DNA of 39,197 nt from a virus. The stretch is from positions 1 through 39,197 of the IMG/VR virus record IMGVR_UViG_3300035698_006961. One strand, given 5' to 3'. Numbering within the stretch: position 1 is the first letter of the stretch; every line of letters starts with the position of its first letter. The translations under genes were made by a program, and so were the position numbers. The notes beneath the pieces are model-generated. The model did not search any database. It was not told where the DNA came from and was given only the letters and a program-made list of their open reading frames with translations. This document shows, piece by piece, positions 931 to 36,041 of this stretch.

Positions 931-3480
931 ACATGCATCGCCAGTAGCATTATTTCGAAGCTGTCTGTGAGTCCGACTATCTTCTATGTTACATCGATTG
1001 ACTTATTGGAACAAGCTTATAACGAAATACAGAAGTTTGTTCATCTCAACGGAATCCCTGTAGAGGTTGGCAGAATTGGTGGTGGTCACAAGGATATCAA
1101 ATCGATCACCGTAATGACGGTACAGACCGCTATACGTTCTTTGGGAGAAGAGTACTTAAAGGACTACAAGTTTGATGATGAGGACGACATTGATAAAACA
1201 GATATTCAGGATATCAAAGCAGATATTTGTGATTTGATTAGAAGTGCCAAGTGTATAATATGCGACGAAGTTCAGCATTGGTCCTCGAAAACATGCCAGT
1301 TGATTTCAGATCATTCAGAGGAAGCGTTCTACAGGTACGGGATGTCCGCGACACCTCATCGAGACATGGGGGACGACATTATGATCGACGCCTGTTTCGG
1401 GAGAGTGTTGGCTAATATCTCTGCATCTTATCTTATTCGGGAGGGATATCTTGTTAGACCAGATATTTTCTTCGTTGAAGTAGATAACATGTCTGATTGC
1501 CCATATTCTACCTATGCGAATATTTATAAGCACGCACTTAAGGAAAATCCTCTTCGTAATGAGTGGATTGCAAAGTCTGCGACAACATTCTTTGAGGACG
1601 GCAGGCTTCCCCTTGTCCTTTGCAAGCACATCGATCACGGTAAGTTACTTCAGTCCATGATCCCAGGGAGTATTTTTCTTCATGGGTCTATTTCTAAGAA
1701 GAAAAGATTAGCTCATCTCGATCTTATGCGAGAGAAAAAATGCGGAGTCACCATAGCCACATCACTGCCATATGAAGAGACACTACTAGTGAGGGACAAT
1801 GGTTATATAAAGCAAGTTCAGATAGGAGAACTGTATCACGATTATTCGGACAGCATACAGAGTGGGAACATATACGTTCTTGGATCAACTGATGGAAGTT
1901 CTACTAGATGGAAGAAAGTAACATTAGCACATAAGCATAAAAAGCAAAATGATATAGTAAATGTTATTACAAATCAGAATGAAGAAGTTCTTGTCACTGA
2001 AAACCATTCGTTAATTAGGCCAGATTTATCGGAGGTTAATCCGTGTGTTGGCGAAGAAGCTGTTTGTCCCAAAGTAGATCTTGAAGATCAAAGACATCGA
2101 CAATTATCTGAAATAAATCTTTTGGAATTATTCTCTACTATTGACGACGATTCTTTAGAGGTAGAGATACTTGGTATAACACAAGGAGGAATAAGGTCTC
2201 TAAAGAGTCAGTTGAAGTACTTTGTCAACAAAGACTCCGTTAGCAAAAGCACTAGGATAAAATATAAAAAAGAATTGGTTGACAAGAACGATTCATATTT
2301 TTTGGCGATAAAAGAACTATTGGTGCATTTTAAGTATTACAAATATAGGTATAGGGCAACATTAAAACAAGTCGCACATTTGAAGAATGTATATAAGTAC
2401 TTTGAAGCACGTATATTTATAAAAAGAAGCAGAAAACGTGCTAGTCTTCCAATATCTATTCCTATAACAAAAGACCTGGGAGTACTCTCTGGGCTATTAT
2501 GCTCTGAGGGACATATAAAAAAACAAACGTGTAAGAGTTGTTTTTCTAGATATGATGTAGTATTTTCTGCGATTGATCGTAGTCTTTATAAATCCAGTGA
2601 TGGTAAGCATGATTTGGATAAGAGAAATATTAGAAATATATTTGAGGCCGCATTCCACAAGTCGTTTGGTGACATTGAATTAATAAAAACTGACAAACAG
2701 ATTAGGATCAATGGAAAGTTGTTGTACTATCTATTTCAAGCAACTGGACATATTGACGAATATGGAAACAAGACTGTACCAGAGTACGTATATAACAGCG
2801 AGAAGAGTGTCCAGGACCATTTCCTTTGGGGGTTTTATTTGGGAGACGGCAGCAAGAAACTCAACTATGGTAAGGGGGAAAAGGAGAAAGGTAGATATTC
2901 TGGAATAATTTTATCAAATAGCAGTAGACCATTTGTTTCTGGATTATGTTCGTTATTGGCTATGATGGGGCTTAGGTACTATATATCGATTCACGACAAC
3001 GTGCTTAAGAATGTTAAAAGAAGATATAATATTGTTATTGTTGACCCAATATTGCATTTGAAACCAGACAGGGTTTATTACAAAAAATCAATAAACTCCA
3101 CAAAGAGGACGCAAAAGAAGGTAATCGCATTAGATAGAAATGACGACTTCGTATATGATATAAGCGTAGACGAGTGCGAAAACTTTGTCGCTGGTGTCGG
3201 CAACGTACTGTGTCACAACTCTATTTTTGACGAAGGAATTGATGTTCGACCATTGGACACGTTGATTCTGGCGGGTTCAGGCAAATCATCAACGAGAGCA
3301 TTGCAAAGAATTGGAAGAATACTTCGTCCTTGGCCCAACAAGGACAACAATATGAAAAAAGAGGCAGTCGCAATAGACTTCATGGATAGGTGCGATTATT
3401 TATGGGACCATGCTCAGAGAAGGTTAGATATCTACAAAGAAGAGGAAGAGTTTAATATCAAGCAGATGAGGATAACATGA
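1..3480 (+). CDS. UvsW-like SF2 DNA helicase, 5' end missing, carrying two inteins
   Basis: This is an ATP-dependent SF2 helicase of the DEAD/DEAH type, resembling phage UvsW and RecG/XPB-like branch-migration or R-loop helicases. The frame is open from base 1 and the window starts inside an intein, so the true start lies upstream. Host-protein segments are bases 931-1761 and 3220-3480. They carry a Walker B/DEVQ box (residues 422-425), motif III SATPHR (449-454), a motif V region whose spliced form reads IATSIFDEGID, and motif VI QRIGRILRP (1102-1110). Intein 1 splits Walker A (GK/T) and intein 2 splits motif V. The stop overlaps the next gene as ATGA. The family assignment is strong; the exact role (origin activation or recombination) is inferred from the neighbouring replication genes. 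Confidence 0.88.
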   Translation: MGPDSRPRRVLSTCVGSDDMFRISPKRGDSFVVNRLHILSLKMTKGSRRDGEIVNVTVEDYLKKNKTFKHCAKGYRVPIEFSRRNVPLDPYFLGVWLGGGNSDYPLVTTKDREIVEFLETFSKSVGLKCINKKSTNRCQQYAISNGERGGGQKNCVLDTLRRLNVINDKKVPEVYKYNSRDIRLSVLAGLIDTDGHLHNSGYDYISKIEELSLDVAYLSRSLGLRARVTKCKKTCSNNGVTGDYYRVSISGDCSKIPVKVARKVASKRKQKKDCLMFGFDVEPLGKGKYYGFEIDKDGLFLLGDFTVTHNTCIASSIISKLSVSPTIFYVTSIDLLEQAYNEIQKFVHLNGIPVEVGRIGGGHKDIKSITVMTVQTAIRSLGEEYLKDYKFDDEDDIDKTDIQDIKADICDLIRSAKCIICDEVQHWSSKTCQLISDHSEEAFYRYGMSATPHRDMGDDIMIDACFGRVLANISASYLIREGYLVRPDIFFVEVDNMSDCPYSTYANIYKHALKENPLRNEWIAKSATTFFEDGRLPLVLCKHIDHGKLLQSMIPGSIFLHGSISKKKRLAHLDLMREKKCGVTIATSLPYEETLLVRDNGYIKQVQIGELYHDYSDSIQSGNIYVLGSTDGSSTRWKKVTLAHKHKKQNDIVNVITNQNEEVLVTENHSLIRPDLSEVNPCVGEEAVCPKVDLEDQRHRQLSEINLLELFSTIDDDSLEVEILGITQGGIRSLKSQLKYFVNKDSVSKSTRIKYKKELVDKNDSYFLAIKELLVHFKYYKYRYRATLKQVAHLKNVYKYFEARIFIKRSRKRASLPISIPITKDLGVLSGLLCSEGHIKKQTCKSCFSRYDVVFSAIDRSLYKSSDGKHDLDKRNIRNIFEAAFHKSFGDIELIKTDKQIRINGKLLYYLFQATGHIDEYGNKTVPEYVYNSEKSVQDHFLWGFYLGDGSKKLNYGKGEKEKGRYSGIILSNSSRPFVSGLCSLLAMMGLRYYISIHDNVLKNVKRRYNIVIVDPILHLKPDRVYYKKSINSTKRTQKKVIALDRNDDFVYDISVDECENFVAGVGNVLCHNSIFDEGIDVRPLDTLILAGSGKSSTRALQRIGRILRPWPNKDNNMKKEAVAIDFMDRCDYLWDHAQRRLDIYKEEEEFNIKQMRIT
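1762..3219 (+). mobile_element. Intein 2 in helicase motif V, Ser1-type, LAGLIDADG endonuclease
   Basis: This is a 486-residue in-frame insertion. The first residue is Ser (SLPYEETLLVRDNG) rather than the usual Cys, and it ends VLCHN with Ser at +1. Removing it restores IAT-SIFDEGID, the expected motif V of this helicase family, so both borders are well supported. A block B histidine is in TENHSL. Dodecapeptide motifs LGVLSGLLCSEG (residues 826-837) and FLWGFYLGDG (941-950) indicate a LAGLIDADG homing endonuclease domain. The Ser1/Ser+1 pair means both acyl shifts use hydroxyl chemistry. Confidence 0.9.
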
Positions 3481-9595: not shown

Positions 9596-9914
9596 AAACT
9601 ATGCGAAAATCAAAGTCGAAAGGGTAGTGTGGCTATGCGATTGGCTAAGACGGCTGTTTCGAGTGCCGAGCTATATCTCTCGCGAATCAGCGATAAAAGC
9701 TTTGAAGAAGGCTTATTGGAACGGAAGCCATCCAACCCAGTTCGGCAAATTCTTTAAGGACATAGCCGAGGAGACGAGAGCGCTAGCTCTCAACTCCAGC
9801 AACGGTCACGTTCTAATGAGCACGACTGGCTACAAATCGATCTGCATTGTGGAGAACAAAATTGAACCAGAAAAGTGGGGGCGACTCCAATACGAGTTAA
9901 AGGAAAAGAAATGA
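9588..9914 (+). CDS. Hypothetical protein
   Basis: This 108-residue protein is not recognised. The start at 9588 (MNENYAK) is chosen because a GAGGAG stretch lies at about 9575-9580, inside the preceding gene. The sequence is basic and Trp-rich near the N-terminus (VVWLCDWLRRLFRVP), with no clear transmembrane segment or signal peptide. Its stop overlaps the following methyltransferase start as ATGA, so the two are probably translationally coupled. Confidence 0.6.
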   Translation: MNENYAKIKVERVVWLCDWLRRLFRVPSYISRESAIKALKKAYWNGSHPTQFGKFFKDIAEETRALALNSSNGHVLMSTTGYKSICIVENKIEPEKWGRLQYELKEKK

Positions 9915-11875
9915 TTAAATATTCGGAAGTAAACGACATACCGATGCAAGTTGACGAAGTGAGAAACGAGATTATACTCGGTGACGTTTTGGATAGTTTG
10001 AGCCTAATCCCAGACGAATCCGTACATGTTGTTTTTACTTCTCCGCCTTATAATGTAGACATACCTTACGGAAATAAGGATGACAATATGCCGTGGGACA
10101 AATATCTCGAATGGCTGTCAGAGGTATGGAGGGAATGCTGTAGGGTACTTGTCAAGGGTGGTCGATTGGTAATCAATATCGACGCTGTCACAAACAGGGT
10201 TGACCCTGTTGAATCAAAAGAGTACGTTCGTCCAATCAATGCTGAACTGGTTTATCAGATGCGTCAGATCCCCGACATGATGTACAGATCTGAGATGGCG
10301 TGGTTTAAGCATCAAGTGGTTGGAAGGGCTACAGCTTGGGGATGTTATGACGACAAAACGAGGGTGATGACAAAAAACGGATTAAAAAGATTTTGTGATA
10401 CAACTGATGAGGACGAGTTTACTACTCTTAATCAGGACACTATGAAGATAGAATACCAAAGAAGAGAAGGATACATATGCGCTCCATACGACGGCGAGAT
10501 GTTTCATCTGAAAAGTAGTGATTTTGATCTATTAGTCACTCCAAATCACAACATGGTTTTGTGGAATAATTACAAGAAAAAAGTAGAGAAACGTGAGATT
10601 CAGGATTGTCCTAAATCTATAATGATTCCCCAGGGACACATGGGGCCAGAGAAAGACAATCCAGAACAAGATACTTTTGTTTTGCCAACAGTCGAATATG
10701 GAAAAAGAACAAAAAAAGAATATATCTGTGGAGAACAGTCTGTTGATATGGATGATTGGTTAAGGTTTCTTGGAATATTCTTCACTGACGGTAATGTTGA
10801 TTTTAGTACAGAACGAAGGTGTTACAAGGTATCTATTTATCAAAAGAAACAGACCCATATGGAGGAAATTAAAAATCTTCTTGATAGGTTGCCTTTTTCG
10901 TTTACGTACAAAAAGAACAAGGATGAGTTTTACACTTGCGACAAGAGACTTGCGTATTGGCTTAACCAGTACTGCAATAAGAATAATAGAACGATTCCAC
11001 TATTTATTCACGAACTGTCAGTGCGGCAAAAGAAGATTTTTATTGATTGGTTATTCATAGGAGACGGGCATAGAGGAAGGACGGATTATCTAGCTGTTTC
11101 ATCTGACAGTTTTTCCGACTCGCTATCTTCAATCTTAACAGATGTTGGATATAAGTTTTCCATATCAAAGAAGAAAAAACAAGATTCACATCAGTTAAAT
11201 GGACATGAAGTTGTGAGCAATGTTGAGATAAATATTATAACATTGAAAAAAAGTGACTTTTATCACATACATCATTCAAATGGAAATGTAAAAAAGGAAC
11301 AGTATTCAGGCAACGTATATTGTGTACAGGTCCCCAACGGAATTCTGCTTGTTGAAAGAAATGGGTGCTTTTCTTGGTGCGGAAATTCCTACTGCAGTTG
11401 TTCCAACCCTGTCATGCGAAGAAATCACGAGTATATTTTAGTTTGGTCCAAGGGGAGCTACTGTCTTGAGGGAGACTCAGAACTGTCTGACATGACAGAT
11501 AAGGAGTTTCAAGAGTGGACGATGAGTTATTGGTATGTTACTCCTGAGACAAGGAATATGGGAGGTCATCCGGTACCTTTTCCAGAAAAGTTGGCAGAGC
11601 GAGTAATTAAACTGTATAGCTATCGCGGGAATACTATTCTTGATCCGTTCGTCGGATCTGGCACAACTTGTGTAGTTGCGGCACAGAATGCAAGAGAATT
11701 TATTGGTATTGACAACAATGAACCATACGCAGAATTTGCAGAGAGAAGGATTGAGGTAGAGTTGTCATCTGTTTTTGCACCAAGCTATAAACCTCGATCT
11801 GAACGACTAAAAAAGTCAAAGATAGATCAGGAAGACAAAAAAGACAAAAAAGAAGTTCCACAGGTATTCGAATGA
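9911..11875 (+). CDS. N4-cytosine/N6-adenine DNA methyltransferase (beta class) with intein
   Basis: The precursor is 654 residues; after removing the 348-residue intein the enzyme is about 306 residues, normal for this family. Beta-class order is visible: catalytic TSPPYNV comes early (residues about 39-45) and the SAM motif DPFVGSGTTCVVA comes late. The pair ILGDVLDSL and GIDNNEPYAEFAERRI supports the N6_N4_Mtase family. The spliced junction reads TAWG-SYCSCSNPV, a conserved region of such enzymes. The start at 9911 is set by AAGGAA upstream and the ATGA overlap. The C-terminal tail is Lys/Asp-rich. It is the third DNA methyltransferase of the window. Whether it makes N4-cytosine or N6-adenine cannot be decided from SPPY alone. 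Confidence 0.88.
   Translation: MIKYSEVNDIPMQVDEVRNEIILGDVLDSLSLIPDESVHVVFTSPPYNVDIPYGNKDDNMPWDKYLEWLSEVWRECCRVLVKGGRLVINIDAVTNRVDPVESKEYVRPINAELVYQMRQIPDMMYRSEMAWFKHQVVGRATAWGCYDDKTRVMTKNGLKRFCDTTDEDEFTTLNQDTMKIEYQRREGYICAPYDGEMFHLKSSDFDLLVTPNHNMVLWNNYKKKVEKREIQDCPKSIMIPQGHMGPEKDNPEQDTFVLPTVEYGKRTKKEYICGEQSVDMDDWLRFLGIFFTDGNVDFSTERRCYKVSIYQKKQTHMEEIKNLLDRLPFSFTYKKNKDEFYTCDKRLAYWLNQYCNKNNRTIPLFIHELSVRQKKIFIDWLFIGDGHRGRTDYLAVSSDSFSDSLSSILTDVGYKFSISKKKKQDSHQLNGHEVVSNVEINIITLKKSDFYHIHHSNGNVKKEQYSGNVYCVQVPNGILLVERNGCFSWCGNSYCSCSNPVMRRNHEYILVWSKGSYCLEGDSELSDMTDKEFQEWTMSYWYVTPETRNMGGHPVPFPEKLAERVIKLYSYRGNTILDPFVGSGTTCVVAAQNAREFIGIDNNEPYAEFAERRIEVELSSVFAPSYKPRSERLKKSKIDQEDKKDKKEVPQVFE
10343..11386 (+). 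mobile_element. Intein in DNA methyltransferase, LAGLIDADG type, Gly-Asn C-terminus
   Basis: This in-frame 348-residue insertion begins with Cys (CYDDKTRVMTKNGLKRF) and ends SWCGN, with Ser at +1. Block B is in TPNHNMV. Dodecapeptide-like motifs FLGIFFTDGN and FIDWLFIGDGH mark the homing endonuclease. The penultimate residue is Gly instead of the usual His, so Asn cyclisation must proceed without the standard histidine. Phage inteins ending in WCGN or WSGN are familiar to me as a subgroup. Excision joins TAWG to SYCS without disturbing the frame. Confidence 0.88.
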
Positions 11876-13786: not shown

Positions 13787-14329
13787 ATGGATCAAATAAC
13801 AGACGTAGATGCTATCCTTAATGAGGTAGTAGCCGTAAGCAAAAATCACAAAAGAACAGTAGCTATCTGTTCTCAAACATTTAGACGAATGGGATATGAG
13901 ATCAACGAAGAAGACTCTTCTAACGCAATCGACATGATTGTTCAAAAAGACGGAGAAGCATATTCGCTTTCTGTATTCGACGATGACTGTATTGGCGATC
14001 AATATCTAAAAATGCCAGTTTGGTCTACTGGCTCCGGACAAACTGTATTCAATACAGATGCTAACTCTGTCGCCATTCATAAGGATAAAGATATTTATCA
14101 ATTCGATTCTTCTTATCTCCGAAAATGCTTGGGAAAAAAGGTAACATCCATGCGAGAAGGTGAAAAGATTTCTTATACAAGAAATAGAACCGCCGCCATC
14201 GCTACCAAGTATCTACAGGCACAATATAATGAGTCAAGAGATTGTTATGATCTTGTTTTGTATGTGCCTCTAGATGTGGTATCTACAAAGATGGAAGTAC
14301 AAGTTCTACATGGGAAAGATAATGGATAG
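13787..14329 (+). CDS. Hypothetical protein, possibly with a degenerate PD-(D/E)XK-like core
   Basis: This 180-residue protein lies directly upstream of the first polymerase gene and overlaps it by eight bases. A stretch AIDMIVQKDGEAYSLSV resembles the D-x(n)-xxVK core strand pair of restriction-like nucleases and Holliday-junction-type folds, but the catalytic (D/E)xK is missing. A following segment (SVAIHKDKDIYQFDSSYL) fits the later strands of such folds. If the fold is right, the protein is a DNA-binding relic rather than a nuclease. A GGAG ribosome binding site precedes the start. The fold call is weak. Confidence 0.55.
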   Translation: MDQITDVDAILNEVVAVSKNHKRTVAICSQTFRRMGYEINEEDSSNAIDMIVQKDGEAYSLSVFDDDCIGDQYLKMPVWSTGSGQTVFNTDANSVAIHKDKDIYQFDSSYLRKCLGKKVTSMREGEKISYTRNRTAAIATKYLQAQYNESRDCYDLVLYVPLDVVSTKMEVQVLHGKDNG

Positions 14330-16913
14330 AAAGTTTTCTAACAAGCAGTTCGTTCACTGGCACGTTCACAGCGAATTCTCCTCATTCGATGGTCTTGGTA
14401 AAATTTGCGATATAGATGCAAATAAGCCAGAAGATAATCTGGTCTTGATGGCCAGAAAGATGGGGTTCCCCGCCTTGGCTATTACAGATCATGGTAATGT
14501 CGGAGGTCTCATTAAGTTCATGGCAGCATGCGCTGCGACTTCTGATAAAGATGGCAATGAAATTCCATATCCGAAGATAAAGCCAATCTTAGGATGCTTA
14601 GTGCGAGGACAGGAGATCGTGACTGTAGACGGCATTAAGGCCGTAGAAGAGATTGCTGTTGGCGATCTTGTTCTAACGCATCGTGGAAGATTCCGAAGAG
14701 TTGTTAAGACGATGGCTCATAAACATGTGGGAAAAGTATTCACGTTGAAATTTGCTGGATGTTCGAAAACACTGACCATAACCGACGAGCATCCGGTTCT
14801 GATAAAGACTATTTCTGAACAAGAGCCTGCTGACGAAGATCGAAGTTCAAATGTAAAATGGGTTCGCGCTGACGAGATAGTTGCCGGGCGAAAAGGGAGA
14901 ACGCTTGGCTATTCAACGTATAATTCGTATGCGTGTCTCCCAAAGATTAAGTGCTTCAATAATTCTGTGGATTCTGCTCAGTATCTTCCAGACAATCTTG
15001 GGGGCGTGGGTGGACCGATAAAAAAAATATCCAAGGGAAATAAATATGAATCATTAGATGGGTGGGACTTGCCGTGCAGTTTTGAGATAAGTAGAGATAT
15101 TGCTTACTTTATGGGATTATTTGCTGCGGAGGGATCTTTTGGAAGAAAAGAGACCGGAGAGGTTAACGGAGATTGCTGTTTTACTTTTGGATTACATGAG
15201 CAACACTTGGCAGACAGGGTTCGCGACATAGCGTTGCAATCTTTTGGCTTATCGTCTCATATATACCACAGACCAGATAAAGGAAGTATAAAAGTATCTA
15301 TATGCTGTTTGCCTTTGGCGTATCTTATTGAAGGAATGTGTGGTTCCGGATGCACTAATAAAAAAGTTCCAAAGGAGATTATGACTGCTACAGAATATCT
15401 ACAGTCAGCTTTTATAGATGGAGTTTTTGATGGAGATGATAGCAATAGTAAACAAAAAACGCTGAGAGTAACTTCTAAGCTTCTAGCCTATGGCGTTCGG
15501 AACTTGTTGGTCAATAAAGGTTGTTGGTCAACTATCGAAGAGTCAATCTCAAAAGACAGACAAACTATTTATTCAATTTCCTACTCTACTGAAAGAAAAT
15601 ACGCTAGGACAGATCAAGATCAAGATAACGATTACGTTTACAAACCTATTGCGGAGGTGTCTTGTGAGGAGACTCAGGCTGATGTATTTAATTTTGAAGT
15701 AGAAGATGACAATAGTTACGTTACTGATTGTATACTACATAATTGCGAACTATACCTGTGTCGTAAACACGAATATGGATCAAAAGAAAAGGCAGCAATA
15801 TCTGGAGGGTTTCAGAAGGACGGGAAGAAAGGCAACAGACACATCAATCTATATGCGATGAACTGGGAAGGGTATCAGAATCTTTGTACGTTATGTAATC
15901 TTGGTTATACTGAGGGTTACTCTTTTGGTGCTGCAAGGATTGACTTTGAACAGTTAGCGGCGCACTCTAAGGGGCTAATGGGTGGCTCTGCATGTCTGTC
16001 TAATATTATTAATTCCAATCTATTGAATGATGATTACGATAAGGCCTTGAAGTCGGCTGCTGCTTTTAAGGAAATCTTTGATGGAAACTTCTTCTTGGAG
16101 ATAATGTATCATGGAATCCCAGAGCAGAAGCTAATTATCCCTGACATCTTAAAAATTTCGAAAGAGTTAGATATCCCGGTCGTAGCAACGAACGACATAC
16201 ACTACATTAGAAAAGACCAATATATGTCGCATGAAGTTTGGGTTTGTGCTGGAACGCATAGTAGCTTACCTGAACCTAATAGAATGCATTTTGATTATGC
16301 GGAAATGTATCTAAAGTCTGCGGAGGAAATGGCAAAAGTATTCAAGTCAGTTCCTCAGGCGTTAGATAATTCTTTTGCTCTTTCTGAACGAATCGACACT
16401 AAGGATATCCAGGATAATTTATTCGGAGGCATGAGGCTTCCGGAATTTGTTATCCCGAAGGATTTTAAAACACCATTGCAATACCTCGTTCATTTGGCAA
16501 AAGAAGGAATGAAAAGAATTGGATGGGATCAGAGCCAACCACATATCGATGCTTTGCGAAAAGAGCTACTAGATATTAAGGTTGCCCTAGATAATAACGG
16601 TTATGATTTTGCGACGTATTTCTTGATTGTGTCTGACTATGTACAATACGCTAAGAACAACGGCATTATTACAGGTTGTGGTAGAGGCTCTGGTTATGCT
16701 AGCATATTGCTTCGAGTGTTAGGGATTACATATGGACCTGATCCTTTAAAGTACGGTCTTCTCTGGGAAAGGTTTCTTGGATTTGACTCTAAAAGGTTCT
16801 TCCTTGAAGAAGACTTTGGATTCAAGAAGAAGGTAACGGCAGAGCAGCTACTGGAAAAAATGGAAGAATCAAGAGATATAGAAAATGATGCTGGCGGAGT
16901 AGATAGGTATTAA
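14322..16913 (+). CDS. dnaE: DNA polymerase III alpha subunit, N-terminal half (PHP and start of palm), with intein
   Basis: This is the first half of a split bacterial C-family replicative polymerase. The PHP domain starts with HWHVHSEFSSFDG (H12, H14, H16) and has AITDHGN. Later come NDIHYI and GRGSGYASILLRVLGIT, then LLWERFLGF, which belongs to the palm. The catalytic aspartates are not here; they are in the second gene. The protein ends shortly after ENDAGGVDRY. The start at 14322 gives the expected distance to the PHP motif. The intein removes 383 residues and rejoins KPILG-CELYLC. The mature chain would be about 480 residues and must pair with the product of 17504-19948. Confidence 0.9.
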   Translation: MDRKFSNKQFVHWHVHSEFSSFDGLGKICDIDANKPEDNLVLMARKMGFPALAITDHGNVGGLIKFMAACAATSDKDGNEIPYPKIKPILGCLVRGQEIVTVDGIKAVEEIAVGDLVLTHRGRFRRVVKTMAHKHVGKVFTLKFAGCSKTLTITDEHPVLIKTISEQEPADEDRSSNVKWVRADEIVAGRKGRTLGYSTYNSYACLPKIKCFNNSVDSAQYLPDNLGGVGGPIKKISKGNKYESLDGWDLPCSFEISRDIAYFMGLFAAEGSFGRKETGEVNGDCCFTFGLHEQHLADRVRDIALQSFGLSSHIYHRPDKGSIKVSICCLPLAYLIEGMCGSGCTNKKVPKEIMTATEYLQSAFIDGVFDGDDSNSKQKTLRVTSKLLAYGVRNLLVNKGCWSTIEESISKDRQTIYSISYSTERKYARTDQDQDNDYVYKPIAEVSCEETQADVFNFEVEDDNSYVTDCILHNCELYLCRKHEYGSKEKAAISGGFQKDGKKGNRHINLYAMNWEGYQNLCTLCNLGYTEGYSFGAARIDFEQLAAHSKGLMGGSACLSNIINSNLLNDDYDKALKSAAAFKEIFDGNFFLEIMYHGIPEQKLIIPDILKISKELDIPVVATNDIHYIRKDQYMSHEVWVCAGTHSSLPEPNRMHFDYAEMYLKSAEEMAKVFKSVPQALDNSFALSERIDTKDIQDNLFGGMRLPEFVIPKDFKTPLQYLVHLAKEGMKRIGWDQSQPHIDALRKELLDIKVALDNNGYDFATYFLIVSDYVQYAKNNGIITGCGRGSGYASILLRVLGITYGPDPLKYGLLWERFLGFDSKRFFLEEDFGFKKKVTAEQLLEKMEESRDIENDAGGVDRY
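14595..15743 (+). mobile_element. Intein in DnaE PHP domain, LAGLIDADG type
   Basis: This 383-residue insertion begins CLVRGQEIVTVDGIKAVEEI and ends CILHN, with Cys at +1. Block B is TITDEHPVL. Dodecapeptide motifs IAYFMGLFAAEGSFG and FIDGVFDGDD mark a LAGLIDADG homing endonuclease. All key splicing residues (Cys1, block B Thr/His, penultimate His, Asn, Cys+1) look intact, so splicing should be efficient. Confidence 0.92.
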
Positions 16914-16922
16914 GGAAAGATT

Positions 16923-17495
16923 ATGAACAGTGTAGCATTTAAACATCCAGACGACAACCACGGCGGCAACAAAAAAGGTGCTATGGCACAGGCTATGTTC
17001 GAAGCGATTCTAGAAAATGGAAAAAAAACAAGCATCGTGGAGTGGAAGAAGACAGGTAGGGCAGAAGACGTCAAAGGCGTAGATTATATTGTCAACAACA
17101 ATGGGCATATAATGAAGATAGGGGTGACATCGTATTGGGTATCGCAATTTCCAAATCATATTAGGATGAGGATTGGAGCAGAGGGGGGAAGAATCCCACA
17201 TTTATTCAATTCGACAGCAACACACTGGGCAATTTACTCTTCTGCTAAAGACAAGTTTTACATCTACCTAGTTTCAGAATTACAAGACTTCATGAAGTTG
17301 GCGTTGAAATCAATAGACATTCGTGACTGTAGGGTAGCGGACGCCATTGAAGATAACGTTATTCAAAGAAGAAAGAGAAAGACATACGGATCTGCTGACC
17401 TATTTTATTATCCGACACTGACAGCACTGGAGGTATTGAATCATTCAGTAAAACCTGTCCTTGAGGAGTCTAATATAGGCGTAGTTTACAAATAG
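16923..17495 (+). CDS. Unknown protein inserted between the two dnaE halves, possibly nuclease-like
   Basis: This 190-residue protein has its own AAGGA site before 16923 and separates the polymerase halves. It is basic. A segment VKGVDYIVNNNGHIMKIGV resembles the Asp strand followed by the xVK strand of PD-(D/E)XK folds, but the usual (E/Q)xK is not conserved (GVT). A later HWAIYSSAKDKFYIYLVSEL fits the next strands of such folds. A free-standing homing-type nuclease, or a relic of one, that invaded and split dnaE is an attractive explanation. The alternative is a small polymerase accessory factor. The function is unproven. Confidence 0.6.
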   Translation: MNSVAFKHPDDNHGGNKKGAMAQAMFEAILENGKKTSIVEWKKTGRAEDVKGVDYIVNNNGHIMKIGVTSYWVSQFPNHIRMRIGAEGGRIPHLFNSTATHWAIYSSAKDKFYIYLVSELQDFMKLALKSIDIRDCRVADAIEDNVIQRRKRKTYGSADLFYYPTLTALEVLNHSVKPVLEESNIGVVYK

Positions 17496-17503
17496 AGGAT
17501 AGA

Positions 17504-19948
17504 ATGTCAGATAAATCAAAATTTCGAGTAGAGATTGAAAAAAGCATTACAGTCAAGGATGCTGACATATTGAAAAAAATAGATGAGGAGCTTAACCTCA
17601 TGGAGAGCACAGAAGGTGTCAGCAGCAAGTCTAATCTAGAATCGTTTTACAATTTGTGGAAAGACAACATAGGTAGCGTTGGAGACAAGAATGTTAGCAA
17701 CTCGTGGACAGCTTTTGCAATTGGTATGACTACCAAGAAACCAGACGGTGAGTTTCTCCCTCTTCGTAGAGCATTCGCTAGAGCAAGTTTTCCTGATATT
17801 GATGTTGATTTTGATGACGAAAAGAGATCTGATATTTACGAGTATCTCATCGATAAGTACGGAAGAGACGCTGTTGGAAATATCGGGACATATTTAAGGC
17901 AAAAAATAAAATCATCGATTAAATCCGTTACTCGTGCAGTAGACGCCTCTAACTCATTTTATAAGGGGAAACAAGAGTGTACTTCTGCTAATTTTGAATT
18001 AGCAAACGAAATCAATCAAACTTTACCAGTAACGTCAACCGGGATAATACGTTGGACAGACAGTGATGGAAAAGACATTAATATCAAATCTTTAGATCAG
18101 GCATATAGATATATCCCTGATTTTAAAGACTACATGGATCGTTATCCAGAGATCCTTCGCCATGCGAGAAACATTGAGTGCCTTGGTGGTGCATTCGGTC
18201 AACACCCATCTGGCGCTGTTATCTCGGATGTTCCGTTATCTACGTTGTGCCCGCTTAGGGTAAACAAAAAGGGTTTAGCAACACAGTTTGCAATGGAAGA
18301 TCTTGAAGCTATCGGGTTGATTAAGTTTGATATTTTGTCGCTTGCTGCTATGACTGTAATCCGAGATGCTTGTGGACTTGTTGAAAAGAACTATGATTTG
18401 AAGTTGGATATTGAGGATATTCCACTAGACGATGAGCCGACATTATCATTGTATCGAAGTGGACAACTCAATGGAGTATTTCAATGTGAAAATGGAGGAA
18501 TGCAGCGGACAATGCGAGATATCGGCGTGACATCGTTTGATGACATCATGGCAGCGGTTGCTCTGTATAGACCAGGACCCATGGATAACATTCCCGAGTA
18601 CGTTGCTCGCAAGAAGGGCAATAGCCCGGTGGAATATTTTCACCCGGCTATTGCTCCCTTCGTGAAGCCTTACCTTGAGAAAACATATGGAGTCCTCGTC
18701 TACCAAGAGCAGGTTATGCAGATTTGTAACTCTCTTTGTGGATTGACGATTACTGATGGTTACGTTATGATTAAGGCAATCGGCAAAAAGAAGATTTACT
18801 TGATGAATAAGTTTGAAAACAAGTTCATCCAGGGCGGAGTAAACAACGGTATCCCAGTAGATGTCATGAAACAGTATTGGGATAGGTTCATTGTTCCGTT
18901 CTCTGATTACGGTTTCAACGCAAGTCACTGTCTGTCTGGCGGGATGAGGGTTAGAGATAAGATTACTGGCTCTTTTTGTACTATAGAAGATCTAGAGACT
19001 ATTGATTCAAAAGACTTAGATGTCGTTCTTGACTCTTACGCTGACGGAAAATTTGTAGAAGATAGACTTATTGATGTGTTCTGTACTGGCGAGAAGGAAG
19101 TCTTTTTCGTGCAACTTTCAAATGGGATGGAAATTGAATGCACAATGAAACATAAATTTCTTTGTTCAGATAGAGAGATAAGAACATTGGAAAATATTAT
19201 CCAAGGAGACTATGAGATACTGTCGGGGTTCATTATCAGTGAAGAACCAGTAGCAAAAGTTAATGAGGAATATTTAAAGCGAAATCACAAAGTTATCTCG
19301 ATTAAGAGTATCGGTAAAAGAAAAACATACAATATGACGATGGAGTCAGAGCAACACAATTACGCACTGTATGACAGTGAGAATGATTCAGAGTTTGTTA
19401 TTAGTCGAAATAGTTGCTGTTACGGTTATATTTCTTATCAGACAGCTTACCTCAAGGCGAATTATCCAGATGAGTTTGCTTGTGCGTTTTTGAATTCTTT
19501 CTCTCGTAGAGCGATGTTTAAGAGTGCGAGTAGCTGGGAACAGGTTGAGATGATGGAAAAGGATGCTAGAAGGAGTCTTGGGATTAAGATTCTTCCTAGA
19601 AGATTGTCCGATTGTAGCCTTGAGTATGCTGTCGTTCGAAAACGGGATGAGTCAAAAGGGATTTTACAAACAGAAGTAATTCCATCAATTTGTTGCAAGG
19701 GGCTTGGCTGGGAGAAGGCTAAGGAAATTGTAAAACATGCGCCGTATGAAAGTCTTGAAGACTTGGCTATCAAAACGGAGAGTAAAACTGTTACGAAAGA
19801 AGCGATAGCGTCTCTGATTGACGCAGGTTACTTTGGACAAAAGGGGCAGCGATTAAAAGATGAACTTCTTGTTAAATTCGGGAAGATCCGAAATGGAATA
19901 AAAGCATCGAAGGCAAAGGGAATAGATTCTTCTATCAGCGTATTCTGA
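17504..19948 (+). CDS. dnaE: DNA polymerase III alpha subunit, C-terminal half (catalytic palm, fingers), with mini-intein
   Basis: This second half of the split C-family polymerase is 814 residues as precursor. The first 95 residues form a charged linker-like region. FPDIDVDFDD then supplies two catalytic aspartates, and IGLIKFDILSL supplies the third. Fingers motifs include GVFQCENGGMQRTMRDI, LYRPGPMDNIPEY and YGVLVYQEQVMQI. The spliced FNASH-SCCYGYISYQTAYLKA matches the conserved DnaE FNKSHS motif. The tail has a helix-hairpin-helix-like region but appears shorter than full bacterial DnaE, with no evident OB-fold or tau-binding part. It starts eight bases after the inserted gene, with AGAGGA upstream. 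Confidence 0.9.
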   Translation: MSDKSKFRVEIEKSITVKDADILKKIDEELNLMESTEGVSSKSNLESFYNLWKDNIGSVGDKNVSNSWTAFAIGMTTKKPDGEFLPLRRAFARASFPDIDVDFDDEKRSDIYEYLIDKYGRDAVGNIGTYLRQKIKSSIKSVTRAVDASNSFYKGKQECTSANFELANEINQTLPVTSTGIIRWTDSDGKDINIKSLDQAYRYIPDFKDYMDRYPEILRHARNIECLGGAFGQHPSGAVISDVPLSTLCPLRVNKKGLATQFAMEDLEAIGLIKFDILSLAAMTVIRDACGLVEKNYDLKLDIEDIPLDDEPTLSLYRSGQLNGVFQCENGGMQRTMRDIGVTSFDDIMAAVALYRPGPMDNIPEYVARKKGNSPVEYFHPAIAPFVKPYLEKTYGVLVYQEQVMQICNSLCGLTITDGYVMIKAIGKKKIYLMNKFENKFIQGGVNNGIPVDVMKQYWDRFIVPFSDYGFNASHCLSGGMRVRDKITGSFCTIEDLETIDSKDLDVVLDSYADGKFVEDRLIDVFCTGEKEVFFVQLSNGMEIECTMKHKFLCSDREIRTLENIIQGDYEILSGFIISEEPVAKVNEEYLKRNHKVISIKSIGKRKTYNMTMESEQHNYALYDSENDSEFVISRNSCCYGYISYQTAYLKANYPDEFACAFLNSFSRRAMFKSASSWEQVEMMEKDARRSLGIKILPRRLSDCSLEYAVVRKRDESKGILQTEVIPSICCKGLGWEKAKEIVKHAPYESLEDLAIKTESKTVTKEAIASLIDAGYFGQKGQRLKDELLVKFGKIRNGIKASKAKGIDSSISVF
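18929..19411 (+). other. Mini-intein in DnaE C-terminal half, no endonuclease
   Basis: This is a 161-residue insertion from CLSGGMRVRD to VISRN, with Ser at +1. It has block B TMKHKF and no LAGLIDADG, HNH or GIY-YIG motif, so it is too short for an endonuclease. GEKEVFFVQLSNG and IGKRKTYNMTMESEQHNYAL recall the halves of cyanobacterial split DnaE inteins (GEQEVFEY and GKQNVYDIGVERDHNFAL), but here as one continuous chain. The site, after FNASH, is five residues downstream of the cyanobacterial one. The penultimate residue is Arg instead of His. Confidence 0.87.
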
Positions 19949-26204: not shown

Positions 26205-27026
26205 ATGACAAAGAAAAAGGATAGACGGATAGACAAAGCCATCAGGGACATGAAGGTCTTATACAAGACGATTCCAGAGACCAAGGGATGTCTTGACAAT
26301 ATCAATAAAACAGAAGAAGATGGCGGATGCGGAGGTTGGTGCTGTAGAATTCAATGCCCACAGTCTCTGTATATTGAGTTTCTTAATGCTTGGAGAGTTG
26401 TTATCAATTGGGGGCCGGACGATTTTGCAGATTTGCTAGAGAGATGTTTGAAAAACTATTTATCAGATGGACCAACGAAGGGTTGTGTTTTTTGGGATCC
26501 AGAAACAAAAATGTGCGGCATTCATGATCAGAGATGTTTTAACTGCTTTTTGCCGGATACCTGGATATTTACTTCTTTGGGACCAAAAAGGATTGGACAC
26601 GTTTTGGCGGGGGACAAAGTTCTTGGAAAGGATGGAGAGTTCCACGATGTAATATCAACGGTATCTCGTCTTTATGACGGCAAGGTATATGCTCCGCACC
26701 AGGGAGGAAGTCAACTTGATTGTTGGAGTACATCAGACCATTTGTGGCTTTCCTCTAAACAAAAAGATAAAAGGAAAAAACTAAGGCCGCGATGGATAAA
26801 AGCTTCATCTTTAGAGAAGAAAAGGACAAAAAAGGAAGGAAATTATTTATTGTTCCCTTATGTGGGTACGGGGGGTGGAGAAACTTGTCAATCCATATCG
26901 CGTATTGATGTTTTAGATCACATCAATGGAGAGGAACTTGGTAATACAGTAATTCCTTTTACAGGCAAAAAACGCAATCCAATTCCCAGATATATACCTA
27001 TTGACGATGGTTTTTGTTTATTCTAG
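26205..27026 (+). CDS. YkgJ-family metal-cluster protein, N-terminal part, plus intein N-half; ends at frameshift
   Basis: The first 113 residues are the N-terminal half of a YkgJ-type (putative zinc- or iron-chelating) protein. Cys clusters are GGCGGWCCRIQC (C42, C46, C47, C51) and CVFWDPETKMCGIHDQRC. An intein begins at residue 114 (CFLPDTWIFTSLGP). The frame then closes at a TAG (27024-27026) inside the endonuclease domain. A single extra T in the five-T run at 27011-27015 would continue the frame into the ORF at 27014-28093. YkgJ-like proteins are thought to bind metals; the function in phages is unknown. Confidence 0.75.
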   Translation: MTKKKDRRIDKAIRDMKVLYKTIPETKGCLDNINKTEEDGGCGGWCCRIQCPQSLYIEFLNAWRVVINWGPDDFADLLERCLKNYLSDGPTKGCVFWDPETKMCGIHDQRCFNCFLPDTWIFTSLGPKRIGHVLAGDKVLGKDGEFHDVISTVSRLYDGKVYAPHQGGSQLDCWSTSDHLWLSSKQKDKRKKLRPRWIKASSLEKKRTKKEGNYLLFPYVGTGGGETCQSISRIDVLDHINGEELGNTVIPFTGKKRNPIPRYIPIDDGFCLF

Positions 27027-27658
27027 GGATATACCTCGCAGAAGGATACAGTTCTCAACAAACTGTGAGTTTCTGTATGAATGTGTCCGAGAAAGCATAT
27101 TTAGATAGAGTTGCAAATTGGATGAAGAAGATGGGGTTAGAGTACAAATTCTATAAACAAAAAAACAATTTAGTGTTGAAGTCTTGTTCTTGTCTTCTTG
27201 GAAGACTTATGAAGTCGTTATGCGGTAACCTGTCCTACAACAAGAGGCTTCACGAGTCCATTTTTGATCTTTGTTCTTATAGCGAATTGATGGACATATT
27301 CTACGCCTGGGACATCGGAGACGGGATAGTTGACAAGGACAGGCTGGCTTATTCTGTTACAACAACATCAGAGTCTCTTGCTATTCAAATGCAGCAGATA
27401 CTTGTGATGAATGGAATCTATCCGAGAGTAAGAAGAAATGATAGTAGAAAAAGAGAAGTTTCTTATTGCCTTCTTGTAAATCACAGTTCGTTAAGCTCTA
27501 GGAAAGATTTTGGGAAGGGTAGCTGTTTAATGAGGGACGAAAAGTATTTTTACGCACCAATCTCTGAGATATCGAGTATGAGATACAATGGTCCAGTAAT
27601 AGATATACAGGTTGATGGGGTAGAGTCATTCGTTACTGCTTCTGGAATTGCACATAAT
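26544..27658 (+). mobile_element. Intein in YkgJ-like protein, LAGLIDADG type, frameshifted
   Basis: It begins CFLPDTWIFTSLGPKRIGHV and ends SGIAHN, with Cys at +1. Removal joins RCFN to CRIYG, the expected YkgJ continuation. Dodecapeptide motifs are FILGIYLAEGYSS and FYAWDIGDGIV. The span is 1115 bases, not a multiple of three: the frame breaks at GGTTTTTG near 27009-27016. One more T, or a -1 slip on TTT, restores DDGFLFILGIYLAEG. As read, splicing would fail. Confidence 0.87.
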
Positions 27659-28093
27659 TGCAGGATTTATGGGATTACTCCTTACGAAGAGTTCCATCCT
27701 AGATACGAGAAGATTAAGGAAGAATTAGGAGATAGTATCGACATTGATATACGAGATCAGTGCGATAAGATTTCTACAGCAGATAGGACAGAAGTCACCA
27801 CAGGAATGACAAATTCTTGGTGGAAAGACCTAGTAAACATAGAGGTAGATGCTGGGATTAAGAAGAAGTTTATTCATGACGGTCCTGGTGGATCGTACTT
27901 GACGTATCATGATCATCTTCTGATTAAGGTTCTGCCAGAAGCAGTAATGAGGAATCTTGAGATTGCACGAAAGCATGGAGACAGAACCGAGAAGAACCAG
28001 GTCATTAAGGGTATAGTCGATGCGTTTCGAAAGAATCTAAAAGTTCAAACGGAGAAATTAAATGAGCGAACTAAGGAAACTAAGGCTGAGTGA
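27014..28093 (+). CDS. Intein C-half and YkgJ-family protein C-terminal part (downstream of frameshift)
   Basis: This 359-residue frame continues the broken gene. It holds the intein endonuclease and C-terminal splicing blocks (up to HN at 27658) and then 145 residues of the host protein, beginning CRIYGITPYEEF. No ribosome binding site precedes the TTG at 27014, so independent translation is unlikely; the fragment is best read as the rest of the upstream gene. The C-terminal host segment has several charged helices. It overlaps the next gene by 32 bases. Confidence 0.7.
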   Translation: MFILGIYLAEGYSSQQTVSFCMNVSEKAYLDRVANWMKKMGLEYKFYKQKNNLVLKSCSCLLGRLMKSLCGNLSYNKRLHESIFDLCSYSELMDIFYAWDIGDGIVDKDRLAYSVTTTSESLAIQMQQILVMNGIYPRVRRNDSRKREVSYCLLVNHSSLSSRKDFGKGSCLMRDEKYFYAPISEISSMRYNGPVIDIQVDGVESFVTASGIAHNCRIYGITPYEEFHPRYEKIKEELGDSIDIDIRDQCDKISTADRTEVTTGMTNSWWKDLVNIEVDAGIKKKFIHDGPGGSYLTYHDHLLIKVLPEAVMRNLEIARKHGDRTEKNQVIKGIVDAFRKNLKVQTEKLNERTKETKAE

Positions 28094-28746: not shown

Positions 28747-31689
28747 ATGCAACTGAATCCGCAGCAAGAAGAGGCGGCAAGCCATGTAGATGGACCTTGC
28801 CTAGTCGTAGCAGTCCCCGGTAGTGGCAAGACCAGAATTTTGACCGAGAGAGCAGGTCGTCTGGTAGAAATGGGGGTCCGTCAACAAAATGTCGCCTGCA
28901 TGACATTTACCAACAAAGCCGCTGGCGAGATGAAGAAACGAATCTGCACAAGACTCGGTTCTACTCCATCCGATCTCAAAATGTACGTCGGCACATTCCA
29001 CAAGCTCTGCGTAGGACTACTGCGCAAATTTGGTGATCGTATTGGGTACTCTGATAATTTCACGATTGTTGATTCAGACGATCAGAAAGAAATGATCAAA
29101 CAGGCTGCTCGCCAAGCTGGTATAGAGATTGAGAGAAAAGATCTGTTTATAATAGCTAAGTGCGTCAATAACTATCGTGAGAATCAGTTGGACCATGATG
29201 GTCTTGATGACCTTTGCGGAAACGATGATTTTCTACACATAGCGGATCTATATTTGGAGAACATTTTCTCTGCAAATGCAATTGATTTTACTGGCTTGAT
29301 GTCGGAAACGATTCGGTTGTTTGAAGAGAATACTGATGTTCTCGAAAAAGTACAGACTGCGATGAAATATGTTCAGGTTGATGAGGCTCAGGATACCAAC
29401 GTTGCGCAGTTCAAACTAATCAACATGTTTATGGGCAAGTGGAATAATATGTTCTTAGTTGGCGACATTAGTCAATGTGTTGTAGAGGGGACAGTAGTTG
29501 AAACTCGTCATGGAGTTAAAACAATAGAGAACATTGTAGTTGGAGACGAAATCCTTTGTGCTTCTGGAGCAGGGAATCAAAGCTGGGGTTGTGTAAAGAA
29601 AAAGTATTCTAGGTCGGCGTCTAATCTAGTTAGGATTAAGACCAAGACCGGAAAAGAGCTAGTATCCACAAAAGATCACATATGGTTCGCTGGGTACAAG
29701 CCATCTAATACTACGCATTTTTTCACTTACTTGATATACAAGGACGGGCTTGGATATCGTGTCGGAACGACAAGGTCATATTCAGGGAATTCGGATCATG
29801 GATCATTGGGAGAGGCCGCAGACAAGGTTTGGGTTATTCGTGTTCACGATACGGAAAAAGAGGCAAAAATGTGGGAGCAGTATTTTTCAGTGAGATACGG
29901 TCTCCCGACTTGGACGTTCGTGAAACATTCTTCTGTAGATAACTCTTACGGGATAGAAGAGATTAATAAATTATTTTCTATGATAGATACTACAGTAGGT
30001 GCTTCTGATTTGATGTTTGACTATGATTTAAGGGAAGATTATCCTCACCATGTTCCTAAATCAATGAGCAGCAGGCGGCGTAGAAATTTCTCTATTACAC
30101 TGTGTGGAGATTCAAGAAGTAAAAAGAAGCCTCTGCACTGTTATGCAATGTCTGGGTCAGACAATAGTGATATGGATATTCTTCGTAAAGCAGGACTAAA
30201 TATAAGGCCAGCAAAGAAATCAAAAGGTTGGAGACTAGAGGGCGTAAAATCCGATATGGGGGTCATAAAGAATATACTAGATAAAGTTGTAAACTTGGTA
30301 GATGTTAACGTTTCTGAAAAAGCTAGATTTACGGACAAATCTCTGCCATTTATGCCTGCTGGATCTGTTCGAGAAGGGATGACGGTATTTGTTAAAGATG
30401 GAGACTCCATAGCAGAAGACGAAGTTACTTGTGTAGAGTCAGTCAGCGAATCTAGAAATGTTTATGACATCGACGTAGAAAGATTCCATAACTTTATAGG
30501 TAATGATATTGTAACTCATAATTCCATTTATCGGTTCCGTGGAGCTAGATACGAAAACGTCAAACTATTTATCGACAATCATAACTGTAAAATTGTTGAG
30601 CTACCGCTAAACTATAGATCTACTCCAGAGATTGTTGCATCAGCAGACAAGCTGATTAAAAACAACTCTTCGCATATGGCTGAACAGTTCATAACAGAGA
30701 ATGATAGCGGAGAGGACGTACAGTGCATATCCTTTAGAGATCAAGGTAAGGAAGCAGAGTTTGTAGCTAGTCATTGCAAGAGGATGATTGAGGAAGCTGG
30801 TTGGAGTCCTGGCGAGATCTCTGTCTTGTATCGAACCAACGCGATGTCTGAGCCTTTGGAAAGAGCTATGGCAAATCATCAAGTTGCTTATCAGGTCATT
30901 GGCGGTCGTAGCTTTTATGATAGACGAGAAATAAAAGATTGTTTATCTCTGCTTCGTATCATAGTAAATCCAAAAGACTGCATCGCATTTAGCAGGATAT
31001 GCAAGATGATTCCGGGCATTGGAGATAAAACCATCGGAGCAATTGAATCTCTAGCTATGTCTAAAGGGATTTCAATCAGAGACGCTGCAGTAGAGTACAG
31101 GCAAGGGATTAAGAGAAAAAGCATATGTGACGCAATAGATTGGATTGTTGAGAGATTGTCCAAGAAGTATGTAAGTTATTCTGCTAGCGATTGTTTAATT
31201 GATCTTGTAGAGAAATTTAATGTAGAAAACAGGCTTGAGAAAGACTACGGTTCAGATGAAGCTACCAGTAGGATCGAGAATGTAAACCAGTTGATTCAAT
31301 CCGCTGGCGCTTACGCGAAGGATACCGGAAATACGTCTCCTGCGTCTTATTTGCAAACTGTTTCGTTGATGACTTCCTCAGACAAAAAAGAGGATAAGGA
31401 AAGAGTATCATTGATGACTCTACACGCAGCGAAGGGTTTAGAGTTCCCTGTAGTTTTCATGGTAGGTGTCGAGGAGAACATTCTTCCTCACATGTTATCT
31501 GTTGCAGATGACCCGTTCGAAGGCATCGAGGAAGAACGCAGATTATGCTATGTTGGCATGACTCGTGCAGAAGAACTATTGATTATGACGTTCTGTCGTG
31601 GTCGTAGTCAGTTTGGTAGGGGCGGTCAATCTTGGTTGAAGGCAGCGAAGCCTAGTCGATTCTTAAAAGAAGCAGGATTAGAGACGTAG
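28747..31689 (+). CDS. uvrD: UvrD/PcrA-type SF1 DNA helicase with intein
   Basis: This 3'-5' SF1A helicase has a 980-residue precursor and about 631 residues when spliced, near the size of PcrA. Motifs are: Q-motif LNPQQEEAA at the N-terminus; Walker A AVPGSGKT (22-29); MTFTNKAAGEM; TFHKLC; Walker B VDEAQD (211-216); the spliced GDISQ-SIYRFRGA; LNYRS; VSLMTLHAAKGLEFPVVF; and EERRLCYVGMTRAEE. The intein sits in motif III. It could remove recombination intermediates or help repair at the fork. A short AAGGAATACG leader precedes it. Identification is secure. Confidence 0.94.
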   Translation: MQLNPQQEEAASHVDGPCLVVAVPGSGKTRILTERAGRLVEMGVRQQNVACMTFTNKAAGEMKKRICTRLGSTPSDLKMYVGTFHKLCVGLLRKFGDRIGYSDNFTIVDSDDQKEMIKQAARQAGIEIERKDLFIIAKCVNNYRENQLDHDGLDDLCGNDDFLHIADLYLENIFSANAIDFTGLMSETIRLFEENTDVLEKVQTAMKYVQVDEAQDTNVAQFKLINMFMGKWNNMFLVGDISQCVVEGTVVETRHGVKTIENIVVGDEILCASGAGNQSWGCVKKKYSRSASNLVRIKTKTGKELVSTKDHIWFAGYKPSNTTHFFTYLIYKDGLGYRVGTTRSYSGNSDHGSLGEAADKVWVIRVHDTEKEAKMWEQYFSVRYGLPTWTFVKHSSVDNSYGIEEINKLFSMIDTTVGASDLMFDYDLREDYPHHVPKSMSSRRRRNFSITLCGDSRSKKKPLHCYAMSGSDNSDMDILRKAGLNIRPAKKSKGWRLEGVKSDMGVIKNILDKVVNLVDVNVSEKARFTDKSLPFMPAGSVREGMTVFVKDGDSIAEDEVTCVESVSESRNVYDIDVERFHNFIGNDIVTHNSIYRFRGARYENVKLFIDNHNCKIVELPLNYRSTPEIVASADKLIKNNSSHMAEQFITENDSGEDVQCISFRDQGKEAEFVASHCKRMIEEAGWSPGEISVLYRTNAMSEPLERAMANHQVAYQVIGGRSFYDRREIKDCLSLLRIIVNPKDCIAFSRICKMIPGIGDKTIGAIESLAMSKGISIRDAAVEYRQGIKRKSICDAIDWIVERLSKKYVSYSASDCLIDLVEKFNVENRLEKDYGSDEATSRIENVNQLIQSAGAYAKDTGNTSPASYLQTVSLMTSSDKKEDKERVSLMTLHAAKGLEFPVVFMVGVEENILPHMLSVADDPFEGIEEERRLCYVGMTRAEELLIMTFCRGRSQFGRGGQSWLKAAKPSRFLKEAGLET
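29476..30522 (+). mobile_element. Intein in UvrD helicase motif III, with GIY-YIG-like nuclease instead of LAGLIDADG
   Basis: The 349 residues start CVVEGTVVETRHGVKTIENI and end DIVTHN, with Ser at +1; excision restores GDISQ-SIYRFRGA. Block B is STKDHIWF. No LAGLIDADG dodecapeptides are visible. Instead, FFTYLIYKDGLGYRVGTTRS, followed by VWVIRVHDTEKEAKMWEQYF and RYGLPTWTF, resembles a GIY-YIG/URI-like nuclease core. The nuclease label is an interpretation of this spacing; the intein itself is certain. Confidence 0.88.
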
Positions 31690-35653: not shown

Positions 35654-36041
35654 GCAAGCGTTATCTTTCAATCACTTGAGGATACAGTTTTCAGATTCAT
35701 CTGATATTCATCTACTTCTCACAGACAAGCAGGTAGATTCAGCAATTAAGCGAGCTAAAGAATCTGGCATATCTGATCCTACTACATGGGTTCACGAATG
35801 CTGGCTTGAAGGAATCGTGTCGAATAAGGCCTGTGATAAAGCTCAGGACGTGGACTATCACGGGCTTCCTAAAGTAGCTCAGAAATTTAGTCATGTACGG
35901 GTGAATCTTGATGGGAGTATTATGCATATGGTGTTGAAGCACGGTCCACTAAAAAGTGCGATCAAAAGAGCCGAGACGTTTGACGGTTCATTGCCGAAGG
36001 TAAGTTGGTTTTCAGATAAATTTGAGGAGAACGATGAGTAA
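35574..36041 (+). CDS. Hypothetical protein
   Basis: This 155-residue protein is not recognised. It has two similar segments: a DKQVDSAIKRAKESG region near the middle and a PLKSAIKRAETFDG region near the end, each following a hydrophobic strand (HLLLT, HMVLKHG). This suggests an internal duplication. The start at 35574 follows AAAGGA and overlaps the phosphatase gene by 80 bases; ATG 35640 is the alternative. It overlaps the deformylase start by eight bases. Confidence 0.6.
   Translation: MAISVTGRMVKAQTVSNLSNRRMKFPKQALSFNHLRIQFSDSSDIHLLLTDKQVDSAIKRAKESGISDPTTWVHECWLEGIVSNKACDKAQDVDYHGLPKVAQKFSHVRVNLDGSIMHMVLKHGPLKSAIKRAETFDGSLPKVSWFSDKFEENDE

Follow-up and report, generated by a model that had tools for sequence, protein, structure and literature searches.

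How a replicative DNA polymerase can be encoded in two pieces that part within its own active site, and what divided it, is the question raised by one locus of a virus record. The window (the whole stretch of DNA analysed) is the complete IMG/VR record IMGVR_UViG_3300035698_006961, 39,197 b long and classed linear. Three ORFs lie in a row on its + strand, at 14274–16913 (879 aa), 16923–17495 (190 aa; here called M), and 17504–19948 (814 aa), with intergenic gaps of 9 nt on the 5′ side of M and 8 nt on its 3′ side. The DnaE domain set (PHP, palm, finger, and HhH) is present in order, shared between the first and third ORFs. SD-like AAGGA and AGAGGA motifs occur in this region, and the start codons of both M and the dnaE C-half are accompanied by SD-like sites. 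The features on which the argument rests are as follows.

14274–16913, + strand: dnaE N-subunit, comprising PHP (1.8e-27), the first palm part with the GRGSG loop (DNA_pol3_alpha 1.6e-17, profile 1–98), and an acidic C-terminal tail ending GGVDRY; aligns to E. coli DnaE 82–396.
14595–15743, + strand: complete LAGLIDADG intein within the N-subunit, at about residues 108–490 (LAGLIDADG_3 5.6e-9 plus Hint matches; CLVRG...LHN/C ends from the translation, boundaries by eye).
16674–16703, + strand: GCGRGSGYAS loop, equivalent to E. coli GPGRGSGAGS (translation; alignment to solved DnaE).
16785–16910, + strand: acidic C-terminal tail of the N-subunit (DSKRFFLEEDFGF...GGVDRY), kept in most split relatives.
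16923–17495, + strand: M, 190-aa middle gene with a probable PD-(D/E)XK fold and without the catalytic E-x-K (no Pfam match; weak AF2 model; Foldseek and VIA).
17504–19948, + strand: dnaE C-subunit, comprising an N-terminal extension, catalytic palm (DNA_pol3_alpha 3.3e-29), thumb/fingers (finger 4.7e-48), and HhH (HHH_6).
17504–17788, + strand: N-terminal extension of the C-subunit, about 95 aa, a probable decayed copy of a palm segment (hhalign, PF07733, shuffle test).
17795–17803, + strand: catalytic D98/D100 (E. coli D401/D403) in FPDIDVDF, from alignment to solved DnaE.
18329–18331, + strand: third catalytic aspartate, D276 (E. coli D555 region, KFDIL), from the translation and Pfam/PDB alignment.
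18929–19411, + strand: mini-intein within the C-subunit, at about residues 476–636 (Intein_splicing 4.7e-6; flanks GFNASH/C...SRN/SCCYGYISYQTAYLK from the translation).

ORFs, Pfam matches and PDB alignments agree that dnaE is divided around the 190-aa ORF, as the original prediction had read it from the sequence. Gene 1 matches PHP and the first part of DNA_pol3_alpha (profile 1–98); gene 3 matches the remainder of that profile (66–259), the fingers and HHH. The two DNA_pol3_alpha matches overlap by about 33 profile positions, which would be a first sign against a plain cut. In the PDB alignments gene 1 ends, and gene 3 begins, at E. coli DnaE residue 396. The palm of gene 1 runs to LLWERFLGF and is followed by the 42-residue acidic tail that ends GGVDRY. 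Gene 3 opens with about 95 residues that have no match to a named domain, ahead of FPDIDVDF and the remainder of the enzyme. In solved DnaE and PolC structures the GRGSG loop binds the dNTP phosphates and D401, D403, and D555 are the catalytic aspartates. The loop lies in gene 1 and the three aspartates (D98, D100, and D276) all lie in gene 3, where they had been placed at the outset; the break therefore crosses the active site. It had been described as a break with the active site on one side and PHP and some of the palm on the other; the division is real, but the dNTP-binding loop stays with gene 1, so the cut goes through the active site rather than beside it. The AF2 model of the C-subunit has a mean pLDDT of 86 and matches DnaE with a VIA Z of 22; its C-terminal SISVF could be a clamp-binding peptide.

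Protein-guided scanning of viral contigs brought up relatives on contigs of up to 548 kb, the close ones sharing about 41–59% identity. The same-point split recurs in 14 other distinct records (L003–L009, L085, L087, L090, L094, and L097–L099) and is thus neither chance nor a sequencing error that broke the frame; L014, a near copy of L007, was left out of the distinct count, which stands at 15 with the window. Uninterrupted dnaE was found in two relatives, L002 and L101, where the gene runs straight through. The extension on the second half is present in every split record and absent from the unsplit relatives, so the junction, which had been taken for an unstructured loop, is instead the site of a conserved domain of about 95 aa. 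The first ~250 residues of the C-subunit have a mean column identity of 64%. Tail and extension are under purifying selection, with dN/dS of 0.05–0.31 for the two together where computable (many pairs were saturated) and 0.06–0.31 for the N-tail in close pairs where computable. In the tree of N and C parts combined, holding the split rows as one clade costs nothing (AU p 0.51), which would allow a single split event; in the tree built from the C part only, unsplit forms are nested within the split clade, which would call for re-fusion or recombination.

Both inteins of the window's dnaE were overlooked in the first reading; each is internal to its own half and neither lies at the break. At the break ends themselves no intein blocks or Hint match were found in any of the 15 split records, which bears out the claim that no split intein joins the halves. 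An arrangement of this kind is familiar from cyanobacterial DnaE and from the fractured genes with split inteins and a free-standing endonuclease that Dassa et al. reportedly described in 2009: there, as here, the gene (dnaE in cyanobacteria) occupies two ORFs with a nuclease-like gene between them, whereas the break considered here carries no intein sequence and covalent rejoining is not expected. A split intein that formerly joined the halves and has since decayed and been lost would be in keeping with the split inteins and free-standing endonucleases found elsewhere in these dnaE genes (L002, L008, L009, L097, and L098). Against it stand the lack of intein blocks at either end in the 15 split records, the resemblance of the extension to DnaE palm and not to Hint, and the unsplit relatives, which have no intein at this point; we regard such a history as very improbable.

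Inteins are abundant in and around these genes. In the 39-kb window one or more occur in each of a helicase, a DNA methylase, both dnaE halves, and a UvrD helicase (intein-bearing regions 1–3480, 9875–11875, 14274–16913, 17504–19948, and 28747–31689). At 26205–28093 a Hint-domain ORF (26205–27026) overlaps a LAGLIDADG ORF (27014–28093) out of frame, and the pair resembles a single intein of a Cys-rich protein, its frame broken near 27014. The position taken by the mini-intein in the window's dnaE-C is occupied in L002 (9440–10700) by a split intein that encloses a free-standing LAGLIDADG gene, so that one intein site in one family appears in a mini state and a split state. In L008, L009 (6789–7712), L097 (7978–8850), and L098 (7985–8842) dnaE-C is broken again, by a split intein at a HAAG site, leaving the polymerase in three pieces; in L009, L097, and L098 a gene for a zinc-finger, Vsr-like endonuclease lies inside this split intein.

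Two further features of these records were seen in passing. The window has at 31730–38626 genes for NeuB, a cytidylyltransferase, an MptE-like protein, a HAD phosphatase, and a glycosyltransferase, a block that suggests synthesis of a nonulosonic-acid type sugar on a phage record, and a peptide deformylase at 36022–36618. In record G001 (350,866 b; loci L172–L189), 27 otherwise different ORFs of at least 60 aa end in R-F-(E/D)-I-L-D-L, where 0.05 are expected from shuffled C-termini; the peptide also occurs in L004, L008, L090, and L098, is absent from record G002 and the window, and is perhaps a shared C-terminal tag that serves as a binding peptide for a common partner.

What lies between the two halves differs from record to record. 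L003 and L085 have a ClpP-like protease in the gap, L087 a cytidine/dCMP-type deaminase, L090 a gene for a zinc-finger, Vsr-like nuclease (the Vsr assignment made by eye), and L006, L007, and L097 a small nuclease-like gene followed by one for a D12 adenine methylase; the gap of L094 is empty, only 3 nt separating its halves, and the remaining split records have small ORFs without assignment. The methylases of L006, L007, and L097 are 66–76% identical to each other, but the gene before them differs, being a homologue of M in L007 and of another type, mutually weakly similar, in L006 and L097; the position beside the first half thus changes its occupant rapidly, whereas the polymerase halves stay. 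Unrelated genes come and go in this gap, which behaves as a slot. A 110-aa slot ORF of L090 (6173–6505) repeats the ELEDDLGGVDRY tail, with its stop, of the DnaE N-half; the reappearance of the tail in a separate ORF indicates that it is portable, and a fresh DNA duplication was rejected as its source, since with 30/39 bases identical the copy is not recent.

For the M family, Pfam, PHROGs, PADLOC, and a sequence search of the PDB gave nothing significant, and 8-mer scans and the phage collection yielded no relatives except L007/L014, which have a homologue at the same slot (27% identity, E 1.6e-10); M has no significant similarity to the slot genes of L006 and L097. An AlphaFold2 model of M, built from two sequences, has a pLDDT of 47 overall and 60–74 over most of the core. 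Nearly all of its top structural matches are PD-(D/E)XK enzymes, the best being the homing endonuclease I-Ssp6803I (2ost; Foldseek E 1.6e-5; VIA Z 10.7, rmsd 3.0 over 113 residues). On this low-confidence model M probably has, provisionally, a PD-(D/E)XK alpha-beta core fold nearest to that of I-Ssp6803I, from which it differs in sharing 14% identity and in having no (D/E/Q)-x-K part of the active site. D54 is conserved, but the (D/E/Q)-x-K position reads IGVT in the window and, in a weak alignment, AVC in L007, and the E-x-K catalytic motif is absent from both; the corresponding position in the L006 and L097 slot genes, its equivalence again taken from a weak alignment, reads VEVK and AEIK. 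The weak PD-(D/E)XK pattern first seen in M is supported, on that low-confidence model, as a homing-endonuclease-like fold, but the motif itself is lacking. Most likely M has a homing-type or resolvase-type nuclease fold, modelled as above, whose active site has been lost or moved.

It had been suggested that M, as a free-standing homing-type nuclease, broke up a once intact dnaE by invading it, in the manner of mobE in nrdA of Aeh1. The best fold match of M, the presence of its homologue at exactly the same place in L007/L014, the nuclease-like genes that also sit in the slot of L006, L097, and L090, and the existence of uninterrupted forms in L002 and L101 are what such an invasion would leave. 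Most of the 15 split records, however, have no M-type gene or other such nuclease gene in the gap, and that of L094 is empty, so that the split is older than M; the extension domain is common to all split records; and M and its homologue lack E-x-K. The suggestion is unlikely on this evidence, and as the cause of the split M is rejected on comparison across the clade (varied or empty gaps; tree of N and C parts): it cannot be the maker or the keeper of the clade's split, although an earlier, different endonuclease could have made the original break.

One continuous polymerase might also be made if the middle region were a self-splicing intron or were bypassed. In Lactobacillus phage Maenad (NC_047931; L211, 1258–5490) the DnaE annotation consists of two CDS that flank, near this point and immediately ahead of the DxD motif, a gap of 292 bp that by eye resembles a group I intron; and in L094 (6919–6926) only a TAG codon and one sense codon part the two halves, which share a frame, so that stop read-through would fuse them. 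Yet Rfam gave no match at E<=1 in 16500–18000 of the window (though it gave none for Maenad's intron-like gap either), tail and extension are protein-coding and under purifying selection, gap contents and lengths vary widely, and the start codons have SD-like sites. An intron or bypass at this break is accordingly a very slim prospect.

The extension of the C-subunit bears on how the gene was divided. In tblastn searches it is colinear with the palm segment of intact DnaEs, through FPDIDxDF; distant DnaEs that had seemed to have the extension were in fact intact, their palm segment being what aligned with it, and from this alignment came the idea of a duplication. When 15 extensions were compared with 53 intact palm segments by hhalign, the match had E 8e-6 and a score of 34.4 in the expected colinear register; 300 column shuffles averaged 11.6 and went no higher than 26.8. 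PF07733 (DNA_pol3_alpha) runs unbroken through the extension in L099 (residues 6–301, profile 13–260) and L008 (residues 10–220, profile 6–213). With the extension alone shuffled and the core kept, 9/15 sequences scored above all 100 shuffles, and several single sequences failed to beat theirs. The N-tail was also tried as a remnant of the DxD strand and did no better than shuffles.

The main rival at this step sees in the extension a docking module gained at the split, a new domain without kinship to the palm. It is favoured by the comparison with the clade's own N-half palm profile, in which hhalign found no significant match, and by the AF2 model of the C-subunit, in which the extension is all-helical and is mostly left off the DnaE palm by VIA (most DnaE alignments begin at residue 87–96, and one, to 7pu7, at 46 with an rmsd of 7.7). 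The colinear register recovered by hhalign, Pfam, and the shuffle tests weighs against it, and we give an unrelated docking domain an appreciable but minor chance. Overlapping duplication with complementary decay is, on these sequence comparisons, the most likely origin of the extension, though well short of assured. A more specific idea is that fission passed through the active site by overlapping duplication, and that the decayed palm copy is an assembly or placeholder domain that would keep the catalytic subunit shut until the genuine dNTP-binding segment arrives with the N-subunit; this we put forward tentatively.

Each of 17 records of up to 548 kb has one DnaE only, in two pieces where split and in three if a split intein interrupts the second half as well. 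Searches of the 17 records for PolA and PolB domains, with positive controls that worked, found neither, and there was no family B (PF00136) match in these records, which are classed linear and may be fragments, so that another polymerase could lie beyond their ends. As neither PolA nor PolB was found in any of the 17, the halves very probably assemble non-covalently, as had been supposed. Together with the purifying selection on tail and extension, these results are in keeping with an obligate two-subunit polymerase.

Taken as a whole, an obligate two-subunit DnaE that arose by a single ancestral division, with duplication and decay, and only later acquired a cargo slot is the reading we favour, with a probability of about 0.7. 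A single division would have taken place in an ancestor of this clade of large phages, the most likely route being a partial, overlapping duplication and then complementary decay that left a palm segment in both halves. The copy in the N-half would have stayed functional, whereas that in the C-half would have lost its GRGSG loop and become the conserved helical N-terminal domain of about 95 aa, which probably aids folding or assembly. After each half has spliced out its own intein, the two would assemble without covalent joining, with PHP and the dNTP-binding palm part supplied by the N-subunit and the catalytic aspartates, thumb, fingers, and DNA-binding parts by the C-subunit. The gap would then have become a cargo slot, with M as one occupant of homing-related nuclease fold, probably catalytically degenerate.

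Split phage polymerases and genes in pieces are already known. In Rhodococcus phage Grayson (MH153812) DnaE is likewise annotated as two adjacent genes without an intein, but its break falls after the PHP part and before the palm, whereas here it is inside the active site. In group 2.2 jumbo phages the Pol III core is divided between its NTP-binding and Mg2+-binding subdomains, and the enzyme is expected to re-form from the two proteins (Iyer et al., 2021; PMC7824862). The division falls at the corresponding subdomain boundary; the group 2.2 version, however, is minimal, with a nucleotidyltransferase core and template-binding domain only, and is encoded at distant loci alongside a PolB (PMC7824862), whereas the enzyme described here is a full PHP-bearing DnaE with adjacent halves at one locus, an extra extension domain, and no PolB found. 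Among T4-like phages, genes in pieces include nrdA/mobE of Aeh1 and gp43A/43B of phages 25 and 44RR; the split NrdA of Aeh1 is functional, 43A and 43B co-purify and have polymerase activity, and the endonuclease may have invaded a gene 43 that was already split (PMC2988022). These too are essential replication genes in two frames, with a nuclease gene or spacer between and no intein, and experiments on gp43 (phage 25) and NrdA (Aeh1) show that such pieces can work together without covalent joining (PMC2988022). The present case differs in that the polymerase is of the C family and not the B family, the split is kept across a diverse clade, the occupants of the gap vary, and both halves appear to be palm-bearing.

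In the literature searched, which largely left out subscription journals, no description of this clade was found. What sets the present case apart is a full PHP-bearing DnaE that is cut in its active site at one locus and is the only recognisable polymerase, together with a conserved extra palm-like domain and a slot of changing cargo. A DnaE whose dNTP-binding loop and catalytic metal ligands lie on opposite sides of a cut, apparently kept so in a diverse clade, is a natural test of how far an active site can be divided; the unsplit relatives, the one with an empty gap, and the apparent doubling of the palm segment form a series in which fission, repair by a new interface, and colonisation of the gap can be followed.
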